IMG/VR virus record: IMGVR_UViG_3300034272_000784 | Span: 1 to 25,974 of that record | DNA from: a virus | Direction: 5' to 3' (one strand) | DNA: 25,974 nucleotides | Part shown: positions 1 through 25,967 of the stretch, piece by piece | How positions within the stretch are numbered: position 1 is the first letter of the stretch | Layout of the letters: every line of letters starts with the position of its first letter | Made by a program: the position numbers and the translations under genes | The notes under the pieces: model-generated | Seen by the model: only the letters and a program-made list of their open reading frames with translations | What the model was told of the DNA's origin: nothing | Databases searched by the model: none

Positions 1-1
1 A

Positions 2-634
2 AGAGGTACATCTAGCGATATTATCGTTGGCGCTGCTGCACTGTTTACAGCAGATAGTACATTAACACCAGGAACTGTCCCTGCTTTCGTTTCAACTGAG
101 TCTTACAAAACGACTCTATCTAATAGCGCTAATATCGCTGGCGGAATTGAAAACGTAGGATATACAAGTAATGGTATTGAAATCACATTCCAACCTGATT
201 TCGGCGAAGTTCAAGTAGACCAAATTCTTGACGTTGCAAAACTTTACAAACAAGGTATGCAAGTAACACTTGCTACTTCTTTTGCAGAAGCAACTCTAGA
301 AAATCTATTGTTCTCAATCGCAGGACAAGGCGATGATCTTTCAGGCAGCAAAACAACATCTGCAGGACGCACACTCAACCTCGCTTCTGGCGATATCGGT
401 GAATGTCCAGTAGAGCGTGCTTTGATTGCAGTAGGTCCAGGAACAGGTGATTGTGACGAGTCATCTAGCGTTGAGCGTGTTTATGTTGCATACCGTGCAC
501 TTTCTATTGAAAATGTTACAGTATCAGCAAAGCGTGACACAGCAACAATGTTTGATGTTACTTTCCGTCTTCTACCAGAAGACTCAACAGGATCTTACGG
601 AAAAATTATTGACCGTACAATCCAAGGTTCATAA
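2..634 (+). CDS. Major tail protein (tail tube subunit), 5' end cut by the window
   Basis: The open frame runs from the first bases of the window to TAA at 632-634, giving 210 residues with no start, so the N-terminus lies upstream. An internal ATG at 257 is not the real start because the same frame stays open before it and encodes convincing protein. The product is rich in Thr, Ser, Gly and beta-prone residues, with stretches such as GIEITFQPDFGEVQVDQI and a C-terminal FDVTFRLLPED, typical of the stacked hexamer subunits of a siphovirus tail tube. Position supports this: it lies directly before the tail assembly chaperones and tape measure, where actinophages keep the tail tube gene. Arg is almost always CGT or CGC, unlike the AGA-rich neighbours, which fits a highly expressed structural gene. 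A strong terminator follows. The role rests on order and composition; I see no decisive motif. Confidence 0.8.
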   Translation, partial: RGTSSDIIVGAAALFTADSTLTPGTVPAFVSTESYKTTLSNSANIAGGIENVGYTSNGIEITFQPDFGEVQVDQILDVAKLYKQGMQVTLATSFAEATLENLLFSIAGQGDDLSGSKTTSAGRTLNLASGDIGECPVERALIAVGPGTGDCDESSSVERVYVAYRALSIENVTVSAKRDTATMFDVTFRLLPEDSTGSYGKIIDRTIQGS

Positions 635-656: not shown

Positions 657-689
657 GGCCCACTAGTCAAACTGGTGGGTCTTTTTTTT
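657..689 (+). terminator. Rho-independent terminator after the major tail protein gene
   Basis: An 11-bp stem pairs 657-667 with 671-681 around a CAA loop at 668-670, with G-U pairs at 658/680 and 664/674, and is followed by eight T residues (682-689). It sits 22 nt after the stop codon. It should end the abundant major tail protein transcript and insulate it from the chaperone genes. The last T is also the first base of the next promoter's TGn element. Confidence 0.93.
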
Positions 690-697
690 GATATAAT
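689..697 (+). promoter_or_regulatory. Extended -10 promoter for the fused tail chaperone gene (leaderless)
   Basis: TGATATAAT combines a TGn extension (689-691) with a perfect TATAAT (692-697). No -35 box is evident; its position would fall inside the terminator stem. Six bases separate the -10 box from ATG at 704, so the expected transcription start coincides with the start codon and the mRNA would be leaderless. There is no Shine-Dalgarno sequence before 704, which agrees. Confidence 0.78.
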
Positions 698-703
698 GGA
701 ATT

Positions 704-1384
704 ATGGCAAACACTGTTTATGATATTAAAAATGTATACTCTGTTGATAATTTTGAAATAGAAGTTAGTCCTTTAAAAATTAAATATTTAAGGGAATTTA
801 TGGATACCTTTCAATTAGTCAAAGATACTAATGGCGATGATGAAGCCACAGATGTTTTGATTGAGTGCATTAGAATATGCATGAAACAGTTTCATCCAGA
901 ATGGTCTAAAAATAAAAAAGATGTAGAGGACAATTTTGACATGCCGACAATATTTGAAATATTAGATGTAGCAGCAGGGATCAAAGTCAATAAAGACTCA
1001 AAAGATTCCGTGGCAAAAAACGTTACAGAGGACAAATCGGTTTGGGCAGATCTAGATTTAGTAAAATTAGAATCAGAAGCATTTTTGCTGGGAATATGGA
1101 AAGACTACAATGAATTAGAAACTTCTATATCTATGCCAGAACTAATGGCCATTCTTAAATCAAAAAGAGAAGTTGATAATGAAGAGAAAAAATTTCTTGC
1201 TGCTATCCAGGGTATTGATTTAGATAAGAATAAACCACAAGAAGAAGACCCCTGGACTAAGTTAAAAAATAAAGTATTTAATGGCGGAAGACAAGATAAT
1301 GACATTCTTACCTATAAAGGCGACAAAGCGAGGAGAGCAGGCTTTGGCATTGGCATGGGGTTAGATTATGAAAATCTAAATTAA
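704..1384 (+). CDS. Tail assembly chaperone with both domains fused in one frame
   Basis: This 226-residue protein has two parts. Residues 1 to about 105 align by eye with the whole of the next gene product, sharing LR-FM, (I/V)EC, QF-PE-SK, PT and GIK at matching positions. The remainder, starting near WADLDLVKLESEAF and including FLAAIQGIDLD, looks like the second domain that other siphoviruses add by a -1 frameshift (the lambda G and GT arrangement). Here both domains are in one uninterrupted frame. Tail assembly chaperones coat the tape measure protein during tail assembly and are absent from virions. An in-phase A_AAA_AAC heptamer lies at the domain junction. The gene lies between the tail tube and tape measure genes as expected, and translation is probably leaderless from ATG 704. 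The family call is strong from order and paralogy; the domain naming is inferred. Confidence 0.8.
   Translation: MANTVYDIKNVYSVDNFEIEVSPLKIKYLREFMDTFQLVKDTNGDDEATDVLIECIRICMKQFHPEWSKNKKDVEDNFDMPTIFEILDVAAGIKVNKDSKDSVAKNVTEDKSVWADLDLVKLESEAFLLGIWKDYNELETSISMPELMAILKSKREVDNEEKKFLAAIQGIDLDKNKPQEEDPWTKLKNKVFNGGRQDNDILTYKGDKARRAGFGIGMGLDYENLN
1015..1021 (+). other. Candidate -1 ribosomal slippery heptamer A_AAA_AAC
   Basis: The zero-frame codons are GCA AAA AAC (1013-1021), so A_AAA_AAC is in the correct phase for a simultaneous -1 slip. It lies at residues 104-106, exactly between the two chaperone domains. A slip would add 30 codons and stop at TGA 1111-1113, giving a protein of about 136 residues with a basic tail. 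No downstream pseudoknot was found by eye. A-rich sequence makes chance occurrence possible. Confidence 0.4.
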
Positions 1385-1406
1385 TGTATAAAAAAACAAG
1401 GTTTTG

Positions 1407-1415
1407 TGATATAAT
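1407..1415 (+). promoter_or_regulatory. Extended -10 promoter for the second tail chaperone gene
   Basis: The 9-mer TGATATAAT is identical to that at 689-697, here in the 61-nt gap between the two chaperone genes. No -35 box is seen. Transcription would start near 1422, giving a leader of about 24 nt that contains the ribosome binding site AGGAAGGGA (1432-1440), 5 nt before ATG 1446. It would let the single-domain chaperone be made separately from the fusion. Confidence 0.7.
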
Positions 1416-1445
1416 TAAGTTCAACCTAAACAGGAAGGGAAGTAT

Positions 1446-1781
1446 ATGCCAACAGTAAAATCAGAAGGAACAGAACTCGTCTTGATGGATGGAACAAAGA
1501 TTAGTGTTAGACCACTAAAACTTTCGTTGTTAAGACCATTTATGAAGAAGTTTGAGCAGGTCGCAGCAGTAGCCGAAGATAATGATAAGTCTATGACATT
1601 ACTCGTAGAATGTGCTCAAATTGCTATGGAGCAATTTAGTCCTGAATTATCTAAAGACATTGATAAGTTAGAAGAAATATTAGATCTTCCAACAACTTAT
1701 AAAATTATTGAAGCAGCCTCTGGAATTAAATTAGCAGATGCAAATGCTCTTTTAAATACAGTACTTGCAAATAACGAATAA
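1446..1781 (+). CDS. Tail assembly chaperone, single-domain paralogue
   Basis: This 111-residue protein is equivalent to only the first domain of the preceding fused chaperone, with roughly one residue in three identical by eye over about 70 positions (for example LLRPFMKKF against YLREFMDTF, and ASGIKL against AAGIKV). It should act in tail assembly by binding the tape measure protein, filling the role of the short chaperone that classical phages produce when the ribosome does not shift frame. The start has a strong ribosome binding site, AGGAAGGGA, 5 nt upstream, in contrast to the leaderless upstream gene. The frame ends cleanly with TAA, no slippery heptamer is seen near its end and no further chaperone domain lies between it and the tape measure, so it is not itself a frameshift donor. 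A duplication of the first domain is the simplest origin. Confidence 0.8.
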   Translation: MPTVKSEGTELVLMDGTKISVRPLKLSLLRPFMKKFEQVAAVAEDNDKSMTLLVECAQIAMEQFSPELSKDIDKLEEILDLPTTYKIIEAASGIKLADANALLNTVLANNE

Positions 1782-1800: not shown

Positions 1801-4800
1801 ATGGCTGATGTAAACGCTAAAATTGGCGTAAGTATAGATGCATCCGCCGCTTTAGCAGAATTAAAAAGTTTACAGAGGCAACTAGCAGCCTTTCATTCAT
1901 CTCTATCAAAAGGCAGCGCAGCCTCTGTCGCAGCGCAAAAAAATCTATCTACTAATCTTTTAAATTCAATTAATGCTACGGGCAAATTTACTGCCCAAAT
2001 GGGATTAGTAAGAAGTTCTACAGAATCCTTTACTCACTCACTTGAAACAAACAAACTTTCAATGCGTGAGTATTTCCGTTATGCAGGCGGATCTACCAGA
2101 ACTTTTGGAAAATTATTTAAACAAGAATTTAACACTATCGGGAAAGTTGCTGAAGAACGTGTTAAAAAGATGCAGACTCAATATATTAAAATGGGTCGTG
2201 ATGCATCTGGAGCAATTAAGGCAATGTCAATTACTCCAAGAACATTGGACATGAATGACTATGCAACTAAAACAGCGCTAGCAGCACAGAAACAAGCATT
2301 ATTTAATCAACTATTAAAGCAAGGATCTACAAATCTTTTAAATTTTGGTAAAAACACTCAGTGGGCAGGTCGTCAATTAATGGTAGGTTTTACAATACCA
2401 CTTGCATATTTTGGAACAGCAGCATCAAAAACATTTATGGATCTTGAAGCACAAGCCATTAAATTTAAACGTGTCTATGGAGATATTTTTACAACTGCAG
2501 ATGAAACTAATAAAGCATTAAAAGAAATACAACTTCTTGCTGAAGGGTTTACTAAATATGGTGTCGCAGTTACTGAAACTATGGAAATGGCTGCCAAAGC
2601 AGCAGCAATGGGTAAAACTGGAGCAGACCTTACAGCACAAGTAGCACAAGCAACTCGTCTTGCAGTTCTTGGCGGGGTAGAACAAGAACAAGCACTAGAA
2701 ACGACCATATCAGTAACAAACGCTTTTGGAATAGCAGCAGAAGACCTAGCAAGTAAAATTAACTTCCTTAACGCAGTAGAAAACCAAACTGTAGTATCTA
2801 TTGAAGATTTAACTGTTGCAATCCCCAAAGCAGGCCCAGTAATAAAACAACTTGGCGGATCTGTTGAAGATTTAGCATTTTTCTTAACCGCAATGAAAGA
2901 AGGAGGAATTAATGCATCAGAAGGCGCTAACGCACTTAAGTCTGGTCTTGCATCATTAATTAATCCAAGCAAAAAGGCTAGCGAAATGTTGGCTGGTTTT
3001 GGAGTTAACATTAAAGCAATTGTTGAGGGCAACCAAGGCAATATTAGAGAAACAGTTGTAGATTTTGCTCAGGCATTAGACACACTAGATCCGCTAAATC
3101 GCTCCCGTGCAATTGAACAACTATTCGGCAAGTTTCAATTTTCACGTTTATCAACACTATTTCAGAACATAACAAAAGAAGGCACTCAGGCTTCTAAGGT
3201 CTTAGGCCTTGCCTCAGCGTCAATTGAAGAACTTGCAATTTTATCTGAACGAGAATTAAAGACTGTAGAAAATGCTATAGGAACTGACTTTAGAGAATCT
3301 GTTGAAAAATTAAAAGTTGCAATTGCGCCAATAGGAAAAACATTTTTGCAAGCCGTAACTCCTATGGTAAAGGTTATAGGATCCTTATTAGATAAATTTG
3401 ATAATTTGAGTGAAGGTACTAAAAAGTTTATTGTTGTAGCAGGAACTTTAGTTGGAGTTATTGGCCCTGTGTTGTTAATGACATTTGGTTTAGTTTTAAA
3501 TGCTACGGCAAATATTGTTAAATTGTTTGGAACACTAAGGGCTGGATTTTTAAAATCTGGGGCTAGTACCAAAGTTTTGGCTGATCAAACAAATTATTTA
3601 AATTCAGAACAACTAGAAGCAGCAACAGTTGCAACTTCATTGGATCAGGCGCACAACAGACTTACTCAATCATTTACAATAGAAGCAGTAGCAGTTCAAG
3701 CATTAAGAAAAGCATATATTGACGCAACAGTAGCAGCAGCAAATTTTGCCAGAACAAATCCAGGAATGATGAATCCAGGATTTAGAAATCTTGGCCCTAA
3801 GAAATTTGCATCAGGCACAACTGGCGTTGTCGGTGGAACTCCAGGAAAAGATTCTGTCCCATCTTTATTAATGCCAGGAGAGGCTGTTATTCCTACAGAT
3901 ACTGCACAAGATAATAGATATAAACCACTTGTGGCAGCGCTTGTTACTGGAAAAATTAAAAAATACGGAAAGGGAACTGTTTCTGCAGGAGATGACTATA
4001 CTCACGTAGGCGGGGGAAGATTAACAAATATAGATGACATAATTGCACAAGGAAGACTAACAGAAAATGAAAAACTTCAAGCCCAAGTATATAGAGATGT
4101 GTTAAAAGCAACAGGAAAATCTCCAGAAGCAAGAGCATATGGTTCTTTAGCACTTTCATTTGATCCTAACCTAAATAAAGGTTTGGCAACAAGAAATGGT
4201 GTGTCGTTAGGCGATTTTGAAAGAGAATGGGCAAGTCGCCCAAACAAGTGGGCACCTTCAGGACTAACTTCATCACAAACTCAAGCAATTGATTCAGCAA
4301 TGATGGATCAAATAAGAAGATCTCCAAGGGTTACTGATGCTGTTATAGAAAATGCTTTTAAGAATGTTCCTGACAATATTAAATCTACTCCAGCATATCA
4401 AAAAATGCTAAGTCAGTATGACAGAATTGGCGGATACTCTTTAGGAAAAGGATTAGGGTCTACCCCTCAAACTAGCGCTCAAGTTTTAGAGCAAGCAAAA
4501 CGTGCTGGGATTATTAAAGATTTTAGAGTTGAAACAAGACAAAGACAATCTGGAGCAACTGGAACAAAGAGTCTTATTGTTACAACTAATGATGGAAAAG
4601 AGGTAAGTCTTGGTCGTGGGTCAAAGGCCAATAGAATTTATTTTTCAGATAAATCTTTAGCAAAAGGCTACCAATCTACAGCATCTACTCTGGCAGTAGC
4701 CAAAGGAGAAATTTATCAAACTAAAGATGGAAAAACTGGCGTAGTTGGTGGACAAACTGGAGAACCAAAACCAAGTGGTAAAACAATAACAGCAAATCCA

Positions 4801-7800
4801 AGAGATACAAGACTTATGCCTACATCTAATTTGGCAAGAATTTTTCCATACGGCGTCAAGGGTCCAAGATTTTCTGGTGCAATGGGTGGAGCAGAAGATT
4901 CATCCTTAATGACTGGAAAATCATTTTCACAAACTGCAAGTGGCCTATATGTTCCAGAATCTAAACTTATTGATGCAATAGAAAAAAATACTGATTCATC
5001 TAAAGAAAATACACAAAATGATAAACAATCAAAAAGAGAAGCAAAAGCACAAAGAATGAACCGTATGACCAGCATAGCAGGTCCAATGTCTATGGTTGCA
5101 GGAACTGCTGCAATGGCTGGTTATGCCACAGGAAATACTGGTTTAGGAAATGTTGCTATGGGAGTTTCTGGGTTAGCAATGATTGCTCCAATGCTTGCAA
5201 ATCCACTAGGTGCAGCAGCAGCAGGATTAACAGCGTTAGCAGCATCTGTTGTTCTTATTAGAAGGGCATTTGATAGCGCACAAGATAGTGCTATGAAAAT
5301 GTCTGAGGCGATGGGAAGTGGAGATAAGGCAATACAAGATCTTGCTATATTTTCAAACAGGGTAAGTGCTGGAGAAATTATGGATAGAAGAAGGGGGAAT
5401 CTTCTTAATCCTTTTGCAGTCCAAACTGGTAAAACAACATTTGGCGAAAACTTTGTTAAGTCTGAAACAGGCAAATCTATGGTGTCTGGTGTTTCTGAAT
5501 CTATTAAAACTGGGGGGACTCAATCTGCACAGGGGCAATTATTAAATCAGTTAGCAACCGGAATTGCTGCGGGCGCAATTAATCCAGCACAAGCCAGAAG
5601 TATTGCTGCCAACATAGCATCAGAAATAGGAGACTATTCATTTGGAATTAGTGTTAATGCAAAACTTATAGATTTGATTGGCGTTAATGGAGAAAATCTA
5701 ATGAAAGACCCATTAAAGTTAAGAGTAACGCTGATGGAAGAATCACGTCAAGGTTTGGCAAAACAATCAAAACTTTTATCATCTGCTGGAGCAGGAGCAA
5801 TGACAAAAACACAAACAAAGGTTGGCGCAATAGGTTTAGGTGCAATGGGTGCGATTGGCGGTGGAGTGTTAGGGGCTACAGCAGTTGGTGCCACTGCTGG
5901 ATCAGTTGTTCCAGTTGTTGGAACTGCAATTGGCGCAGCAATCGGTGCAGCAATTGGTGCTGGAGCATTATGGTATAGTCAAAAAGGACAACAAGAAAAA
6001 CTTGGCAGGGCATCTGGAGCAAATGTTGCTATGCAAAAAATGGCTTTAGAACAAAGCCAACAAATGCAAGACTCTTTAAGACTTGAGTATGAACAAAGAA
6101 TTGCTAACGCTAAGGCTGCTGGAGACACTGTAAAAGCAATTCAATTGCAAAATGAATATCAACGAGCAAACACTACACTGCTTGAGCAAAATGGAAAATT
6201 AGTTACAGATATACAAAACACATATAAAAATTCATCTGGAGCAGTTCGTGGAGCGCTTGAAACTGGATTAGACAAACAGATTACAAGTAAATATAAAGAT
6301 ACTGCTATGGCAGATATAGCACCGCTTGCTACAGATTTATTAGGTGGTTCGTCTTTGTCTAAAGAAGCACAATTTACTTTAAAAATGCAACTAGCATCTG
6401 GTCAAATGGACCCAATGCAAATTGTTAATTTAATGGAAACATTTGGACAAGATTCAGAAACTTTAACCAAAGTTATGAATATTGTTACAAAGTTTGGTGG
6501 TGCTTTTGCTAATCAAGCCATGTCAGTTGTTAACCTATTCCAGGATAAAAATGGAAATCCGCTTAAAGAACAGCAGACAAAATTTATTGCGGACATTAGT
6601 GGTAAAACTTCAGAAGAAGCAGAAAAATATCTAAAACTTTTTGCAGATATAAGTAGGGTTGGAAATGTTATGGATATTGAAGTTGCATTAACATATTATA
6701 GTAATAATCCAATTGAAGCAGCAAACCTACAATCAACAATAGATAAAATTAATGAGCAAAAAGGAAAAATTGATTTAGAAATTGCAACAAAAATATTAGG
6801 GGCAAAAGAGATGGAGGTTTTAAGAAAAGATCAAGAATATTTTAGCAACCTTCCACCAGAACAACAAAAGGTATATTTGCAGACACTTACGACAGTAGCA
6901 AACATTGAGGGCAATAATGCAGAAGCAATTCAAAATTGGCTAACACAAAATCCAGACAAAACTGTATTAGATTATTTGGCCGAACTTGCACAAAAAGTAA
7001 CAAAGATTAGTATAGATAACACAATCCCAGGTGGTAATAAAAATGTACAAAGTGGCAATAGAGATACCACATTTGACGATATTTTAATTAATCTTAAGAG
7101 AACAAGAGATGCCACAATAAATGCAACTAAAGGCGCAGGAGAACTTCTAAGAGTTCTTGGTGGAGCCAAAGACATTAAAATATTTAATGGCATTGATCAA
7201 CAATTAGCAAGCCTTGGTGCAAATACAGATTTTATTGATTGGGTCGGCGGAGCAGAAAAAGCAATTCAAAATAAGTTAATTAAAGTGGCAAAAGATGGCA
7301 TAGTTACAATAACTGCTTTGGGAAAGGCTGCTCAAAAAGCATTTGACGAAAAGGCACTTGGTTTATTTAATGCTGAACAAATAAATGCAATTAATGGAGC
7401 GCAAGCACAAAGAACTGCATTTGTAAGGTTAACTGCAGCAGGAGTAAATCAAGCACAGGCCTTAGAGTTAGTTGCTGATGCAAACTTGGCAATTGCTATT
7501 TCACGTATAAAAGATATTAAAGAGTTAGAAAAGTGGATAGAAACATATAAAACTGCAAAAGATTTAATTGATAAAACAGCAAGACAAAATGACCCAATTA
7601 CAGCATTTAGAAATGATATGGCCAAAGTTAGTGAAATGCTAGATGTTCAAGAACAGCAGGCTAGGGCTAAATATCAACCAGAAATTGATAGAGTAAATGG
7701 TTTAATTGAAGCAAACGAAAAAGCAATAGAGGCCAAACAACGCTACTCTGAGATCACTTATGACAGACCAATTCAACAACGTCAGTCTGAAATCACAGAA

Positions 7801-9024
7801 CTAAACCACGATCTTTCCTTAATAGAAAAAACAGCCTCAACAATAACTGAAAAATATGGCAAACAGAGGGACGCTTTAGAGCAAGTTTATTCAATTAACC
7901 AAAGAATTGCCGATCAACAAAAGTCTAAAATTTCCCTTGCTGATGCATTAACAACTGGAGATATTTCTCAGGCAGCACAAATAGTACAAGATATTAGAAA
8001 TCAAGAACAGGTTTATGCAAAAGAGCAAAGTTTAAATGCTTTAGAGATTGCCCAAACCAATGAAATAAATGCTTTAAGATCAGCAGGCGGATTATCTAAA
8101 CTTCAAATTGAACAAAAAATTTATACCTTGGGAGAAGAAATATACTCTCTAGAACAAAAGCAGGCAGTTGTTGCAGCAGAAATTGTTGTGCTTCAAGATA
8201 AAAACTATAACTTAAAAGTTGGGGAGTTAGCAAAAGCACAAGGACTACTTGATAACGAAATAAAACTTATTGAACAACAAAGACTAAAATATGCAGAAGC
8301 AGAACTTGCTATTAAAAGTGCAGAAGTTAAAACTAAAGATTATATTAAAGCATTAGAAAGCGCAGAAAACGTTTTAAAGAGAATGGCAATTTTATGGGCG
8401 ACTCTAGGCAGTAAAACATCAGCAGATCTAGGAGGCATTACAGGAGCAGTTGAAGACCCAAAGGATAAAATTAAAAATGACGAAGAGAAAGACAAACCCC
8501 CAGCCAAAACAAACCTTATAAGCGTTACAGCCAAAAACGGACAAACATTATCTAGTATTGCTAAGGCAAACAATACAACCGTAAAAGAATTGCTTGCCAT
8601 AAACCCAGTATTAACCAGCAATCCTAAATATAATAATGGAAATACAATCTTTAACGGAACAACAGTTAAAGTTCCAGGAAAAATGTATGGAGGCGTTGTT
8701 TCTGGAAGTGGAATGCTAGATAAAGTTCCTACCATGCTTACTCCAGGAGAATTTGTCATGAATAGGGCTGCTTCACAAAAATTTGGACCATTACTAGAAA
8801 GGATGAATGAGTCTAAATATCCAGGAAGTTTATCACTTGGAGGAACTCCTGCAGTAAATGTGGTTAGCAATAACTCAGCAAAAAATAGCAACACTTCAGT
8901 GTATAATTATAGTTTAAGTGTTGGGGTAAACGGAACTTCTGCAAGCCCAGACGACATTGCAAGAACAGTAATTACACAAATTAGAAATATGGATGCTCAA
9001 AGATTGAGGGGGAATAGATACTGA
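1801..9024 (+). CDS. Tail tape measure protein, TP901 type, with LysM-like domain
   Basis: This 2407-residue protein sets tail length and is carried inside the tail tube. Residues about 184-404 form a TP901-like core (includes KAAAMGKTGADL and FFLTAMKEGGINASEGA). Hydrophobic stretches lie near 544-567, 1096-1157 and a glycine-zipper stretch 1342-1391, plausible membrane-interacting segments for DNA injection. Residues about 1934-2197 are Gln/Glu/Lys-rich and likely coiled coil. A LysM-like domain lies at about 2239-2293, starting SVTAKNGQTLSSIAKANN. A D-x-VP-x(2)-L-x-PGE motif occurs twice, at 684-694 and 2307-2317. At the usual 1.5 angstroms per residue the tail would be about 360 nm. No lytic active site was recognised. 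ATG 1801 is preceded by GGGGTG with 7-nt spacing; an ATG at 1797 is in a frame that stops at once. Confidence 0.95.
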   Translation: MADVNAKIGVSIDASAALAELKSLQRQLAAFHSSLSKGSAASVAAQKNLSTNLLNSINATGKFTAQMGLVRSSTESFTHSLETNKLSMREYFRYAGGSTRTFGKLFKQEFNTIGKVAEERVKKMQTQYIKMGRDASGAIKAMSITPRTLDMNDYATKTALAAQKQALFNQLLKQGSTNLLNFGKNTQWAGRQLMVGFTIPLAYFGTAASKTFMDLEAQAIKFKRVYGDIFTTADETNKALKEIQLLAEGFTKYGVAVTETMEMAAKAAAMGKTGADLTAQVAQATRLAVLGGVEQEQALETTISVTNAFGIAAEDLASKINFLNAVENQTVVSIEDLTVAIPKAGPVIKQLGGSVEDLAFFLTAMKEGGINASEGANALKSGLASLINPSKKASEMLAGFGVNIKAIVEGNQGNIRETVVDFAQALDTLDPLNRSRAIEQLFGKFQFSRLSTLFQNITKEGTQASKVLGLASASIEELAILSERELKTVENAIGTDFRESVEKLKVAIAPIGKTFLQAVTPMVKVIGSLLDKFDNLSEGTKKFIVVAGTLVGVIGPVLLMTFGLVLNATANIVKLFGTLRAGFLKSGASTKVLADQTNYLNSEQLEAATVATSLDQAHNRLTQSFTIEAVAVQALRKAYIDATVAAANFARTNPGMMNPGFRNLGPKKFASGTTGVVGGTPGKDSVPSLLMPGEAVIPTDTAQDNRYKPLVAALVTGKIKKYGKGTVSAGDDYTHVGGGRLTNIDDIIAQGRLTENEKLQAQVYRDVLKATGKSPEARAYGSLALSFDPNLNKGLATRNGVSLGDFEREWASRPNKWAPSGLTSSQTQAIDSAMMDQIRRSPRVTDAVIENAFKNVPDNIKSTPAYQKMLSQYDRIGGYSLGKGLGSTPQTSAQVLEQAKRAGIIKDFRVETRQRQSGATGTKSLIVTTNDGKEVSLGRGSKANRIYFSDKSLAKGYQSTASTLAVAKGEIYQTKDGKTGVVGGQTGEPKPSGKTITANPRDTRLMPTSNLARIFPYGVKGPRFSGAMGGAEDSSLMTGKSFSQTASGLYVPESKLIDAIEKNTDSSKENTQNDKQSKREAKAQRMNRMTSIAGPMSMVAGTAAMAGYATGNTGLGNVAMGVSGLAMIAPMLANPLGAAAAGLTALAASVVLIRRAFDSAQDSAMKMSEAMGSGDKAIQDLAIFSNRVSAGEIMDRRRGNLLNPFAVQTGKTTFGENFVKSETGKSMVSGVSESIKTGGTQSAQGQLLNQLATGIAAGAINPAQARSIAANIASEIGDYSFGISVNAKLIDLIGVNGENLMKDPLKLRVTLMEESRQGLAKQSKLLSSAGAGAMTKTQTKVGAIGLGAMGAIGGGVLGATAVGATAGSVVPVVGTAIGAAIGAAIGAGALWYSQKGQQEKLGRASGANVAMQKMALEQSQQMQDSLRLEYEQRIANAKAAGDTVKAIQLQNEYQRANTTLLEQNGKLVTDIQNTYKNSSGAVRGALETGLDKQITSKYKDTAMADIAPLATDLLGGSSLSKEAQFTLKMQLASGQMDPMQIVNLMETFGQDSETLTKVMNIVTKFGGAFANQAMSVVNLFQDKNGNPLKEQQTKFIADISGKTSEEAEKYLKLFADISRVGNVMDIEVALTYYSNNPIEAANLQSTIDKINEQKGKIDLEIATKILGAKEMEVLRKDQEYFSNLPPEQQKVYLQTLTTVANIEGNNAEAIQNWLTQNPDKTVLDYLAELAQKVTKISIDNTIPGGNKNVQSGNRDTTFDDILINLKRTRDATINATKGAGELLRVLGGAKDIKIFNGIDQQLASLGANTDFIDWVGGAEKAIQNKLIKVAKDGIVTITALGKAAQKAFDEKALGLFNAEQINAINGAQAQRTAFVRLTAAGVNQAQALELVADANLAIAISRIKDIKELEKWIETYKTAKDLIDKTARQNDPITAFRNDMAKVSEMLDVQEQQARAKYQPEIDRVNGLIEANEKAIEAKQRYSEITYDRPIQQRQSEITELNHDLSLIEKTASTITEKYGKQRDALEQVYSINQRIADQQKSKISLADALTTGDISQAAQIVQDIRNQEQVYAKEQSLNALEIAQTNEINALRSAGGLSKLQIEQKIYTLGEEIYSLEQKQAVVAAEIVVLQDKNYNLKVGELAKAQGLLDNEIKLIEQQRLKYAEAELAIKSAEVKTKDYIKALESAENVLKRMAILWATLGSKTSADLGGITGAVEDPKDKIKNDEEKDKPPAKTNLISVTAKNGQTLSSIAKANNTTVKELLAINPVLTSNPKYNNGNTIFNGTTVKVPGKMYGGVVSGSGMLDKVPTMLTPGEFVMNRAASQKFGPLLERMNESKYPGSLSLGGTPAVNVVSNNSAKNSNTSVYNYSLSVGVNGTSASPDDIARTVITQIRNMDAQRLRGNRY

Positions 9025-15735: not shown

Positions 15736-16289
15736 TGGCAGACGCTGGAATTAAAAGAACTATAATAAAATCATCAGATCTTCCCCCAACACTAGGAGAC
15801 AATCAAACCCTAACTTACACATTAAGATATCGTATATTGTCAGAAGATAAGAATAGGTTTTCGCACTGGTCTCCAATAAAAGAAATAACAATAAATAATA
15901 CATTTGATGAAACTGGCTTTGATCCAAATAATTTAGCAACTACAAATATTCCATATAGCATTAACGTTGATAGTCAAGCAAATATAGTTAACATTTCATG
16001 GACAATGCCTGCATTATTAATTGTAAACCCAACAGAAGAAGAAAAAATATTACAGGAAAAGCAGGCTGCAATTACAGAGTTTGATGTTTATGTTCAATGG
16101 AAAACAGGTGAAGTTGTAAGTAATTGGATTTGGGTTGGAAAATCTACAAGCACTAATTATTCTCTTTCTTACCCACATGGGTCAGGGGCGCCAGATCAGA
16201 TAAAGATTAGAATACAAAAGGTGACCATAGTAAAGGGACCATTTGATGCAGCAACATATCTAATTAGTGACTTAGAAAACATAAACTGA
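15735..16289 (+). CDS. Probable tail-tip protein with fibronectin-III-like fold
   Basis: This 184-residue protein starts at ATG overlapping the previous TAA by one base (TAATG). The pattern TLTYTLRYRILSEDKNRFSHWSP, then a strand with VNISWTMP, and a second sheet including FDVYVQWKTG and YSLSYPH resembles fibronectin type III modules, common decorations of phage tails that help bind cell surfaces. It is the last gene of a continuous translationally coupled run beginning at the tape measure. Its TGA stop supplies the TGn element of the promoter for the next gene. No catalytic residues are apparent. The fold is inferred from strand pattern and the role from position. Confidence 0.55.
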   Translation: MADAGIKRTIIKSSDLPPTLGDNQTLTYTLRYRILSEDKNRFSHWSPIKEITINNTFDETGFDPNNLATTNIPYSINVDSQANIVNISWTMPALLIVNPTEEEKILQEKQAAITEFDVYVQWKTGEVVSNWIWVGKSTSTNYSLSYPHGSGAPDQIKIRIQKVTIVKGPFDAATYLISDLENIN

Positions 16290-16295
16290 TATAAT
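16267..16295 (+). promoter_or_regulatory. Promoter for the 147-residue structural gene
   Basis: A -35-like GTGACT (16267-16272, four of six consensus bases) is separated by 17 nt from TATAAT (16290-16295), which is preceded by TGA to give the same TGATATAAT 9-mer seen at 689 and 1407. The TGA is also the stop codon of the upstream gene. The ribosome binding site AAGGAG (16301-16306) lies 4 nt before ATG 16311, so the transcript would have a leader of about 9 nt. Confidence 0.7.
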
Positions 16296-16310: not shown

Positions 16311-16754
16311 ATGTCAAAGATACCATTACCAGAAAGAGGGCAACCTTTAGATGTAACGTATATCTATCAGTTAGCCGAGGCAATAAATGATGTTGCAACA
16401 GAGGTTTCTTCAACCACCTCTAATTATGCAACTGTAGATACTACGGGGTCCGATAAAGCAAATGTAAAAACTTCAGAACTAAGAGTTGTTGCTGGCAGAG
16501 TTGAAATTTTTAATAATACAACTGTAACGCCAACAACAGAAAAAGATTTCTTTTATAATTTTACTACAAACTTTAAATATGCACCAATTGTTACTGCAAC
16601 TCCAGTTAACGTAGGCAACACTCCAGCGGGTAAAAATGTGTCTGTAATTTTAAAAAACATTACGACCTCTCGTGTGGAGGGTAGCGTTAAATTTGGAGCC
16701 TCTGGAGATTTATCTGTATGGGTAAATCTTATTATTGTAGGCATTCCAAATTAA
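16311..16754 (+). CDS. Small virion or fibre-like protein with own promoter
   Basis: This 147-residue protein begins MSKIPLPERGQPLDVTYIYQ and has a short helical segment (QLAEAINDVATEV) followed by a beta-rich C-terminal domain, from about residue 60, with alternating polar and hydrophobic strands (KYAPIVTATPV, GDLSVWVNLIIVGIPN). This layout, a helical or trimeric neck followed by a small beta domain, is common in phage fibres, head fibres and H-type-lectin-like tips. It has a good ribosome binding site (AAGGAG) and a dedicated promoter, implying expression separate from or above the preceding tail genes. It is the last virion-like gene before the regulatory and replication genes. The function is inferred and no defined family motif was found. 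Confidence 0.55.
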   Translation: MSKIPLPERGQPLDVTYIYQLAEAINDVATEVSSTTSNYATVDTTGSDKANVKTSELRVVAGRVEIFNNTTVTPTTEKDFFYNFTTNFKYAPIVTATPVNVGNTPAGKNVSVILKNITTSRVEGSVKFGASGDLSVWVNLIIVGIPN

Positions 16755-25298: not shown

Positions 25299-25967
25299 AT
25301 GACTACTTTCCCATTGCTAGATAAATTTCCAAAGTATAAAAAATTGAGAGAATCTCAAGACTATGTGTCTGATCAAGATTTTATTCCAATCTTAGTAGAT
25401 AATATTTTTACTGATAAAGAACTAAAGGCTATATTGCAAGCAGCCAGGGAATTTCCTTTAAAAAAGGTTAGAGTTCAAAAATGGGGTGGGCAAGGAGTTC
25501 TAGATCATATAAAAATTTCAGATAATATAATTGCAAAAATACAAAACTTAGCATCAGAAGTATGCAATAAAGATTTGGTTGTTGCAGAATATTCTGTTGT
25601 TAGATATTCTCCTGAGTACGGATATGAAGTTAAATTGTTTCCACATTATGACACAAGGCCGTACGAGATGTTTGTTTTTGATGTTCAATTGCAAACAAAT
25701 GAGGATTGGGGAATAATTGTTGAAGGCAAACAATTTAATATTTTAGACAATCAGGCCTTACTATTTTCTGGGACTCAACAGATGCACTGGAGAGAAAATA
25801 AAAAATTGCAAGATAACTCAGAAATACTAATGATGTTTTTCTGGCTTAAGCATAAAATTTCAAAGCCCATATCTGAAACTATTTCAACAATTATGCTTGA
25901 AAGACAAACAGTTCTTCAAAAAGAAACAAATATCTTGAGTGACGAAACTTTAAGGAAAAGAGGATAA
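25299..25967 (+). CDS. 2-oxoglutarate/Fe(II)-dependent dioxygenase-like protein
   Basis: This 222-residue protein has the double-stranded beta-helix signature of 2OG-Fe(II) enzymes: an H-x-D pair, H116-Y-D118 in LFPHYDTRP, and a distal His163 in QQMHWRE, about 45 residues later and followed by Arg165. Strands such as FVFDVQLQTNEDWGIIVEG and NQALLFSGTQQ lie between them as in the prolyl-hydroxylase type. Such enzymes hydroxylate or demethylate proteins or nucleic acids; phages also use them to modify DNA bases. No substrate can be named. The co-substrate arginine is not certain: the usual H-x(8-10)-R spacing is not clear here. It appears to be a leaderless single gene after the replication module. 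The window ends 7 nt after its stop, so its downstream context is unknown. Confidence 0.75.
   Translation: MTTFPLLDKFPKYKKLRESQDYVSDQDFIPILVDNIFTDKELKAILQAAREFPLKKVRVQKWGGQGVLDHIKISDNIIAKIQNLASEVCNKDLVVAEYSVVRYSPEYGYEVKLFPHYDTRPYEMFVFDVQLQTNEDWGIIVEGKQFNILDNQALLFSGTQQMHWRENKKLQDNSEILMMFFWLKHKISKPISETISTIMLERQTVLQKETNILSDETLRKRG

Follow-up and report, generated by a model that had tools for sequence, protein, structure and literature searches.

In phage lambda, the tail assembly chaperones gpG and gpGT are produced at a ratio of about 30:1 by a low-level programmed −1 frameshift, and the same account states that, T4 apart, the G/GT frameshift is widely conserved in long-tailed phages (PMC5009743). 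Some subclusters of the Microbacterium EA phages are reported to have two chaperone ORFs and no evident frameshift (PMC7302621; for EA1, PMC11659878), and the Gordonia cluster DJ phages are summarised as having no recognised chaperone with a slippery site (PMC12859696). For SEA-PHAGES genomes in which no frameshift is annotated, the PRFect survey counts 347 with one chaperone gene and 342 with two, and it suspects incomplete annotation in many of them (PMC10885494). Outside phages, yeast IDP3 is described as a case in which a frameshift isoform was fixed after gene duplication (PMC4526572).

Streptomyces phage Coruscant (Stanwilliamsviridae) has a G gene (114 aa) and a T in the −1 frame, both annotated as tail assembly chaperone and located between the major tail protein and the tape-measure gene; EGole and Mildred21, also Streptomyces phages of that family, have this layout as well. 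We analysed a locus in a virus sequence of 25,974 nucleotides (IMG/VR record IMGVR_UViG_3300034272_000784, positions 1 to 25,974, one strand), all of which is referred to here as the window. This locus resembles those of the three phages in its homologous G and T domains and in its place between a tail protein and the tape measure, but they have one G and a T in the −1 frame whereas the window has GT in one frame and G as a second gene. As in lambda, two products, G and G with a second domain, are encoded just before the tape measure; in lambda, however, a single recoded gene gives an identical G in both, while in the window there are two genes whose G domains are 41% identical. We consider it likely that this is a tail assembly chaperone module in which the −1 frameshift has been replaced by gene duplication, with the products partitioned between the copies and initiation taking the place of recoding.

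The Microbacterium EA phages, compared here by their description only, are alike in that chaperone ORFs are apparently expressed separately without a frameshift, and the passages describing them in PMC7302621 and PMC11659878 name no fused GT with a G paralogue. The likeness to IDP3, as that case is outlined in its source, is that a product once made by frameshifting acquired a dedicated gene after duplication, although IDP3 concerns error-type +1 shifts and protein targeting in a eukaryote and not a programmed structural ratio in a phage. The open-access literature searched yielded no description of a fused GT accompanied by a G paralogue. Non-frameshift chaperones have already been reported elsewhere, and the fused GT with its G paralogue is the new part. 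The largest threat to the novelty of the split locus is the study by Vladimirov et al. (2022) of chaperones in T4-like phages, the title of which reportedly proposes a mechanism other than frameshifting.

Layout and homology of the chaperone locus

The chaperone genes lie downstream of a gene that by synteny putatively encodes the tail-tube protein, and upstream of the tape-measure gene. The features of the locus are:

1..634, plus strand: 3' part of the upstream gene, putative tail-tube (major tail) protein, by synteny with Coruscant and EGole
657..689, plus strand: terminator-like hairpin before gene 1, with arms at 657-666 and 672-681 and a T run at 682-689
689..697, plus strand: putative extended −10 of gene 1, TGATATAAT, 6 nt upstream of the ATG and directly behind the hairpin
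704..1384, plus strand: gene 1, predicted fused GT chaperone of 226 aa, with G at about 704-1024 and T at about 1025-1384
1407..1415, plus strand: putative extended −10 of gene 2, TGATATAAT, 30 nt upstream of the ATG
1432..1440, plus strand: purine-rich, Shine-Dalgarno (SD)-like stretch of gene 2, AGGAAGGGA, as read from the sequence
1446..1781, plus strand: gene 2, predicted G-only chaperone paralogue of 111 aa, by homology to the G of gene 1
1801..9024, plus strand: tape-measure gene of 2407 aa, matching phrog_10030, tail length tape measure protein (E=2.8e-93)

In the upstream gene, a profile search matches the ORF at 257-634 to phrog_2175, 'protein with Ig domain' (E=3.7e-16); major tail protein is the annotation of the gene 5'-adjacent to the chaperone in Coruscant and EGole. 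Only 19 nt separate the stop of gene 2 from the tape-measure gene, no terminator-like signal is seen between them in the window, and the putative gene 2 promoter may serve the tape-measure gene too. The exact TGNTATAAT occurs four times in the window where 2.7 copies are expected, two of them being the gene 1 and gene 2 sites; this count is not significant within one window alone, and the position of the sites is conserved among relatives. Another exact TGATATAAT lies on the plus strand at 16287-16295, just 5' of an ORF at 16311-16754, and is possibly a late promoter. Near the other end of the window, the ORF at 25299-25967 weakly matches a PHROG that is named ferrochelatase (E=2.5e-6).

A first-pass annotation of this DNA had described the two ORFs at 704-1384 and 1446-1781, the first with both domains in one frame, and both are as it described them: phrog_10504 is matched by the gene 1 protein (E 1.8e-18) and by the gene 2 protein (E 2.5e-19), and phrog_10474 by residues 131-184 of the gene 1 protein only. 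The paralogy that it had read from shared motifs is borne out by BLASTP of one protein against the other (71.6 bits, E=3e-21, 41% identity over 83 aa), in whose alignment the named motifs lie. The same annotation had allowed that the N-terminal domains might be dissimilar, or the second half of gene 1 foreign to known chaperones; the former are homologous, and the T half is homologous to the −1-frame ORF of Coruscant annotated as tail assembly chaperone. Both a G form and a longer G plus T form with a homologous N-terminal domain are present, and the ORFs of kin are annotated as tail assembly chaperones. It can be proposed that phrog_10504 and phrog_10474, both of unknown function, represent the chaperone G and T domains.

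Predicted structures (mean pLDDT 75.9 for gene 1 and 71.4 for gene 2) model the G domain in both proteins as two strands with helices, and T as helical. In Foldseek searches, predicted viral proteins named tail assembly chaperone match both models, with E=2.1e-4 for gene 1 and, in the case of A0A6J5QVP5, E=1.4e-6 for gene 2. HK97 gp13 (2ob9) tops the list of solved structures for gene 2 (Z 4.2, 87 residues aligned, rmsd 5.5), albeit tied with unrelated entries and weak on its own; the corresponding PDB fold list for gene 1 has no chaperone, which does not exclude the fold. Solved structures searched by sequence gave chance-level matches only. Named chaperone PHROGs have weak matches to at most four of 57 members, and Phage_TAC_19 matches two of the 57, below an unrelated Pfam family (14 of 57). 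A Pfam search with four window proteins gave only DUF4778 (E=0.05).

Spread of the two layouts and loss of the frameshift signal

A tblastn search with the gene 1 protein found 132 phage records (127 of Streptomyces and 5 of Rhodococcus phages) with one matching place each; among the matches listed, those in Streptomyces phages are split in two pieces, and in the two from Rhodococcus phages the second half of the protein alone matches. The gene 2 protein matches one place in each of 127 records, all from Streptomyces phages, and at the sensitivity of the search no record of that phage collection has two G copies. There was no match in a plasmid collection.

We assembled a set of loci from six IMG/VR scans, one scan of GTDB contigs, three GenBank regions and the window. 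Each collection scan contributed its best 80 loci, the same contig can recur, and the counts below are not prevalences; two copies of the window were left out of the 456 loci. The GTDB contigs contained one relative among 115 candidates. By profile searches, 243 of the 456 loci listed have a fused G-T followed by a G, and 195 have a G followed by a T in the −1 frame, the layout that we call canonical. The remaining 18 comprise 14 cut by a contig end, one with a broken gene 1 and three that are divergent. Counted as distinct domain sets, there are 143 fused, 120 canonical and 17 others among the loci listed. The first-pass annotation had called for a survey of relatives for the two-gene layout, and the layout thus recurs in 143 distinct relatives; on these numbers an artefact of assembly or sequencing was rejected.

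No complete fused locus without a downstream G was found among the loci listed; four candidates for such a locus (L038, L021, L275 and L279) were rejected and end within about 130 nt of T. T is in the −1 frame relative to G in all 195 canonical loci listed. No reading frame is fixed between gene 1 and gene 2 (of the 243 fused loci listed, gene 2 is at +1 in 97, at 0 in 83 and at −1 in 63), as expected for independently started genes.

Several single loci have peculiarities of their own. In L133 (4227-4971) a short near-exact tandem repeat in the T domain breaks gene 1, the sole case among the loci listed, and this is either a mutation or an assembly artefact. In the divergent canonical loci L262, L263 and L265 the G profile match falls in two separated pieces before the −1-frame T, possibly through an insertion within G. 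The contig with the canonical locus L326, 110 kb long, belongs to a metagenome-assembled genome that bears the label uncultured cyanobacterium, and represents either a mis-binned phage or a different host.

WhiB was found only in Corynebacterium among 14 control genomes. Eight of the 12 related contigs that were searched for it encode WhiB, namely the one canonical contig and each of the seven fused contigs of at least 94 kb, and none of the four shorter fused contigs does. This distribution points to actinobacterial hosts, and the viruses with the split locus appear to be a group of freshwater bacterial viruses.

For the frameshift signal we took an in-frame X XXY YYZ as a slippery heptamer, and obtained the expectation for fused linkers from codon shuffles. 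Such a heptamer is present in 111 of the 120 distinct canonical overlaps, mainly as CCCAAAC, GGGAAAC or CCCAAAT. Among the 143 distinct fused linkers it is present in 25 versus 26.25 expected, which is the chance level, and the end of gene 2 has one in 27 of 143. The −1 frame behind gene 2 is closed (median of −2 codons past the stop, maximum 18), and that behind canonical G has a median of 110 open codons. Lengthening of gene 2 by a −1 shift was rejected because the frame closes, and an internal frameshift in gene 1 was rejected across the clade because the linker heptamers are at chance level. The locus is not a frameshift-expressed G/GT pair, in that gene 1 has G and T in one frame and the linker signal is at chance; the earlier proposal that the frameshift had been replaced agrees with the absence of any signal above chance in the fused linkers.

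The window itself has an in-frame A AAA AAC at 1015-1021, at codon 105 of gene 1 and at the G/T boundary, where a −1 shift would terminate after 30 codons. In a smaller, earlier set it is common to four of 89 distinct pairs, these being the closest kin only and one of them identical to the window, and a local exception that retains frameshifting may exist in this small group.

Start signals of the two genes

We compared the distinct regions upstream of gene 1 (123), gene 2 (127) and canonical G (107) from the loci listed. A first promoter count took the best hexamer anywhere in 80 nt, and about one in ten of the gene 1 distances were far from the start; the hexamer counts given here for gene 1 and canonical G are from a second count, made by position relative to the start.

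All 127 gene 2 upstreams have an exact TGnTATAAT at 20-40 nt before the start, at a median of 27 nt (shuffled mean 1.05), and in 126 an SD core lies no more than 18 nt from the start (shuffled 21.95). Of the 123 gene 1 upstreams, 110 carry at 4-12 nt a TG-extended hexamer that matches at 5 or 6 of its 6 positions (shuffled 0.8), 32 of the hexamers being perfect, and none of the 123 has a TG-extended hexamer at 20-40 nt. Most of the 13 without such an extended −10 at 4-12 nt carry a weaker or slightly displaced one. None of the 123 has an SD core, versus 12.65 expected, and the start codon is ATG in 122. Leaderless starts are common in Actinobacteria. With a −10 at 4-12 nt and no SD, gene 1 is probably expressed from a leaderless mRNA.

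Of the 107 canonical G upstreams, 104 have at 20-40 nt a hexamer that matches at 5 or 6 positions, in 82 cases with the TG extension, and the extended signal of the gene 1 type is in none of the 107. An SD core is present in 86 of 107, and in only 11 of the 21 proximal canonical upstreams. By these positions the promoter spacing of gene 2 appears to be of the ancestral type. In 51 of the 107 distinct canonical upstreams G is predicted to start with TTG. Terminator-like hairpins lie upstream of gene 1 in 107 of 123, of gene 2 in one of 127, and of canonical G in 49 of 107; shuffles that kept only base composition gave 8, 2 and 0, respectively.

The promoter and ribosome binding site that the first-pass annotation had given to gene 2 thus correspond to conserved TGnTATAAT and SD signals. 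Its further view, that the two genes are started separately, is upheld by signals that are conserved and differ between the genes, although it had overlooked that gene 1 has an extended −10 of its own and no SD. In the window both −10 hexamers are perfect, so that any difference in strength there would have to come from the leader and the SD.

Origin of the two copies and the proposed mechanism

The main G tree was built from 96 G domains; the trees used 25 of the 49 fused pairs and 46 canonical rows, without L283, L295, L312, L292 and L315, which have long branches. The G domains of gene 1 (G1) form one clade (100/99) and those of gene 2 (G2) another (99/91), and a quick tree of 129 rows again gave each as one clade. 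The G2 clade lies within a group of proximal canonical phages that includes L306, L287 and L242, while G1 is on a long stem, and a branch supported at 100/98 separates G1, G2 and the proximal canonical G from the rest. The best tree does not place the two copies as sisters, although a clade of G1 with G2 is not rejected (p-AU 0.298). The T of the fused genes groups with the proximal canonical T (98/96). Three canonical T domains, from the G/−1/T loci L308, L242 and L373, fall among the fused T, and either T was exchanged or recombined there or the fusion state may have reversed.

Mean identity over the same 400 random locus pairs is 0.562 for G1, 0.696 for G2 and 0.693 for T, and mean identity to canonical G is 0.467 for G2 and 0.359 for G1. 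The alignments show gene 2 finishing with a short tail like that of unshifted canonical G, and gene 1 continuing into T. By these measures G2 is the ancestral-like copy. Median dN/dS over 561 pairs, picked by low synonymous divergence of G2 in a way that itself lowers the dS of G2, is 0.124 for G1, 0.084 for T and 0.107 for G2; these low medians indicate that all three are under purifying selection. In L017, L019 and L025 gene 2 is about 62-63% identical to that of the window and T about 78-83%, and in L018 gene 2 is 87% identical, which suggests that gene 2 may have been swapped between lineages. The simplest history would be that a frameshifting locus was duplicated, with each copy keeping one product.

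Other readings of the locus have to be weighed against this. Recombination could have brought gene 1 from another phage lineage, placing a xenologue beside a native G, and the long stem of G1 outside the group of proximal canonical G and G2 in the best tree fits such an origin. We regard it as unlikely: fast evolution of G1 gives the same tree through long-branch attraction, the joint clade of G1 and G2 is not rejected, and the T of gene 1 groups with the proximal canonical lineage, as G2 does. A xenologous origin would, moreover, leave the working mechanism the same. We also give little credence to the idea that the tape-measure gene is the true target of the conserved promoter ahead of gene 2, with gene 2 regulated only incidentally. 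Although the tape-measure gene follows gene 2 at 19 nt with no terminator-like signal seen, in canonical kin a promoter of this kind immediately precedes G, with T still lying between G and the tape measure; a promoter that serves both gene 2 and the tape measure would be compatible with these observations.

It is quite improbable that gene 1 alone does the chaperone job, whether because GT suffices or because the short form arises by cleavage or internal events, and that gene 2 has another role. G2 is the copy closest to canonical G and has the same type of promoter spacing, and gene 2 is present in every complete fused locus listed and under purifying selection; what speaks for this reading is that G1 is far from canonical G (0.359 against 0.467 for G2), so that the copies are not interchangeable, and that single-gene chaperones appear in annotation surveys, as in the figures reported in PMC10885494. 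A dnaX-like scheme, in which gene 1 still makes a short G by an internal −1 frameshift at 1015-1021 and gene 2 is an extra copy, draws on a textbook heptamer in the right frame in the window and on the stop after 30 codons, yet that heptamer is in four of 89 distinct pairs, one of them identical to the window, and the linkers are at chance over 143 loci; we hold it to be very improbable.

Under the duplication reading, an ancestral locus consisting of promoter, G, slippery site, −1-frame T and tape measure would have been duplicated. The upstream copy would have been fixed in one frame as GT, with its own promoter and a predicted leaderless mRNA, and in the downstream copy the slippery site and T would both have disappeared, with promoter and leader staying of the ancestral type, so as to give G alone before the tape measure. 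By analogy with lambda, G would coat the tape measure, and a minority of GT would recruit tail-tube subunits. The balance of G to GT may then depend on how the promoters are used and on leaderless as against SD-led initiation. As no terminator separates the two genes, G and the tape measure are probably also encoded on the GT message, and transcripts from the second promoter would add G and tape measure without GT, keeping G above GT.

On balance we lean toward the view that an actinobacterial phage lineage dropped the frameshift through duplication, placed the stoichiometry in initiation signals, and let the G part of GT specialise as a dedicated starter. The G part of GT no longer shares its coding sequence with G and so is free to specialise, and with two genes the protein forms can be dosed and can evolve independently. 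Across a clade, the choice between leaderless and SD-led initiation seems to have taken over from recoding in the control of dosage. The sister lineages differ in exactly this, a frameshift versus two genes, with the ancestral type of control region still recognisable, and the pair of loci makes it testable why most phages keep the frameshift, whether anything beyond the ratio is important, and whether GT works only if its G part is the same as G.
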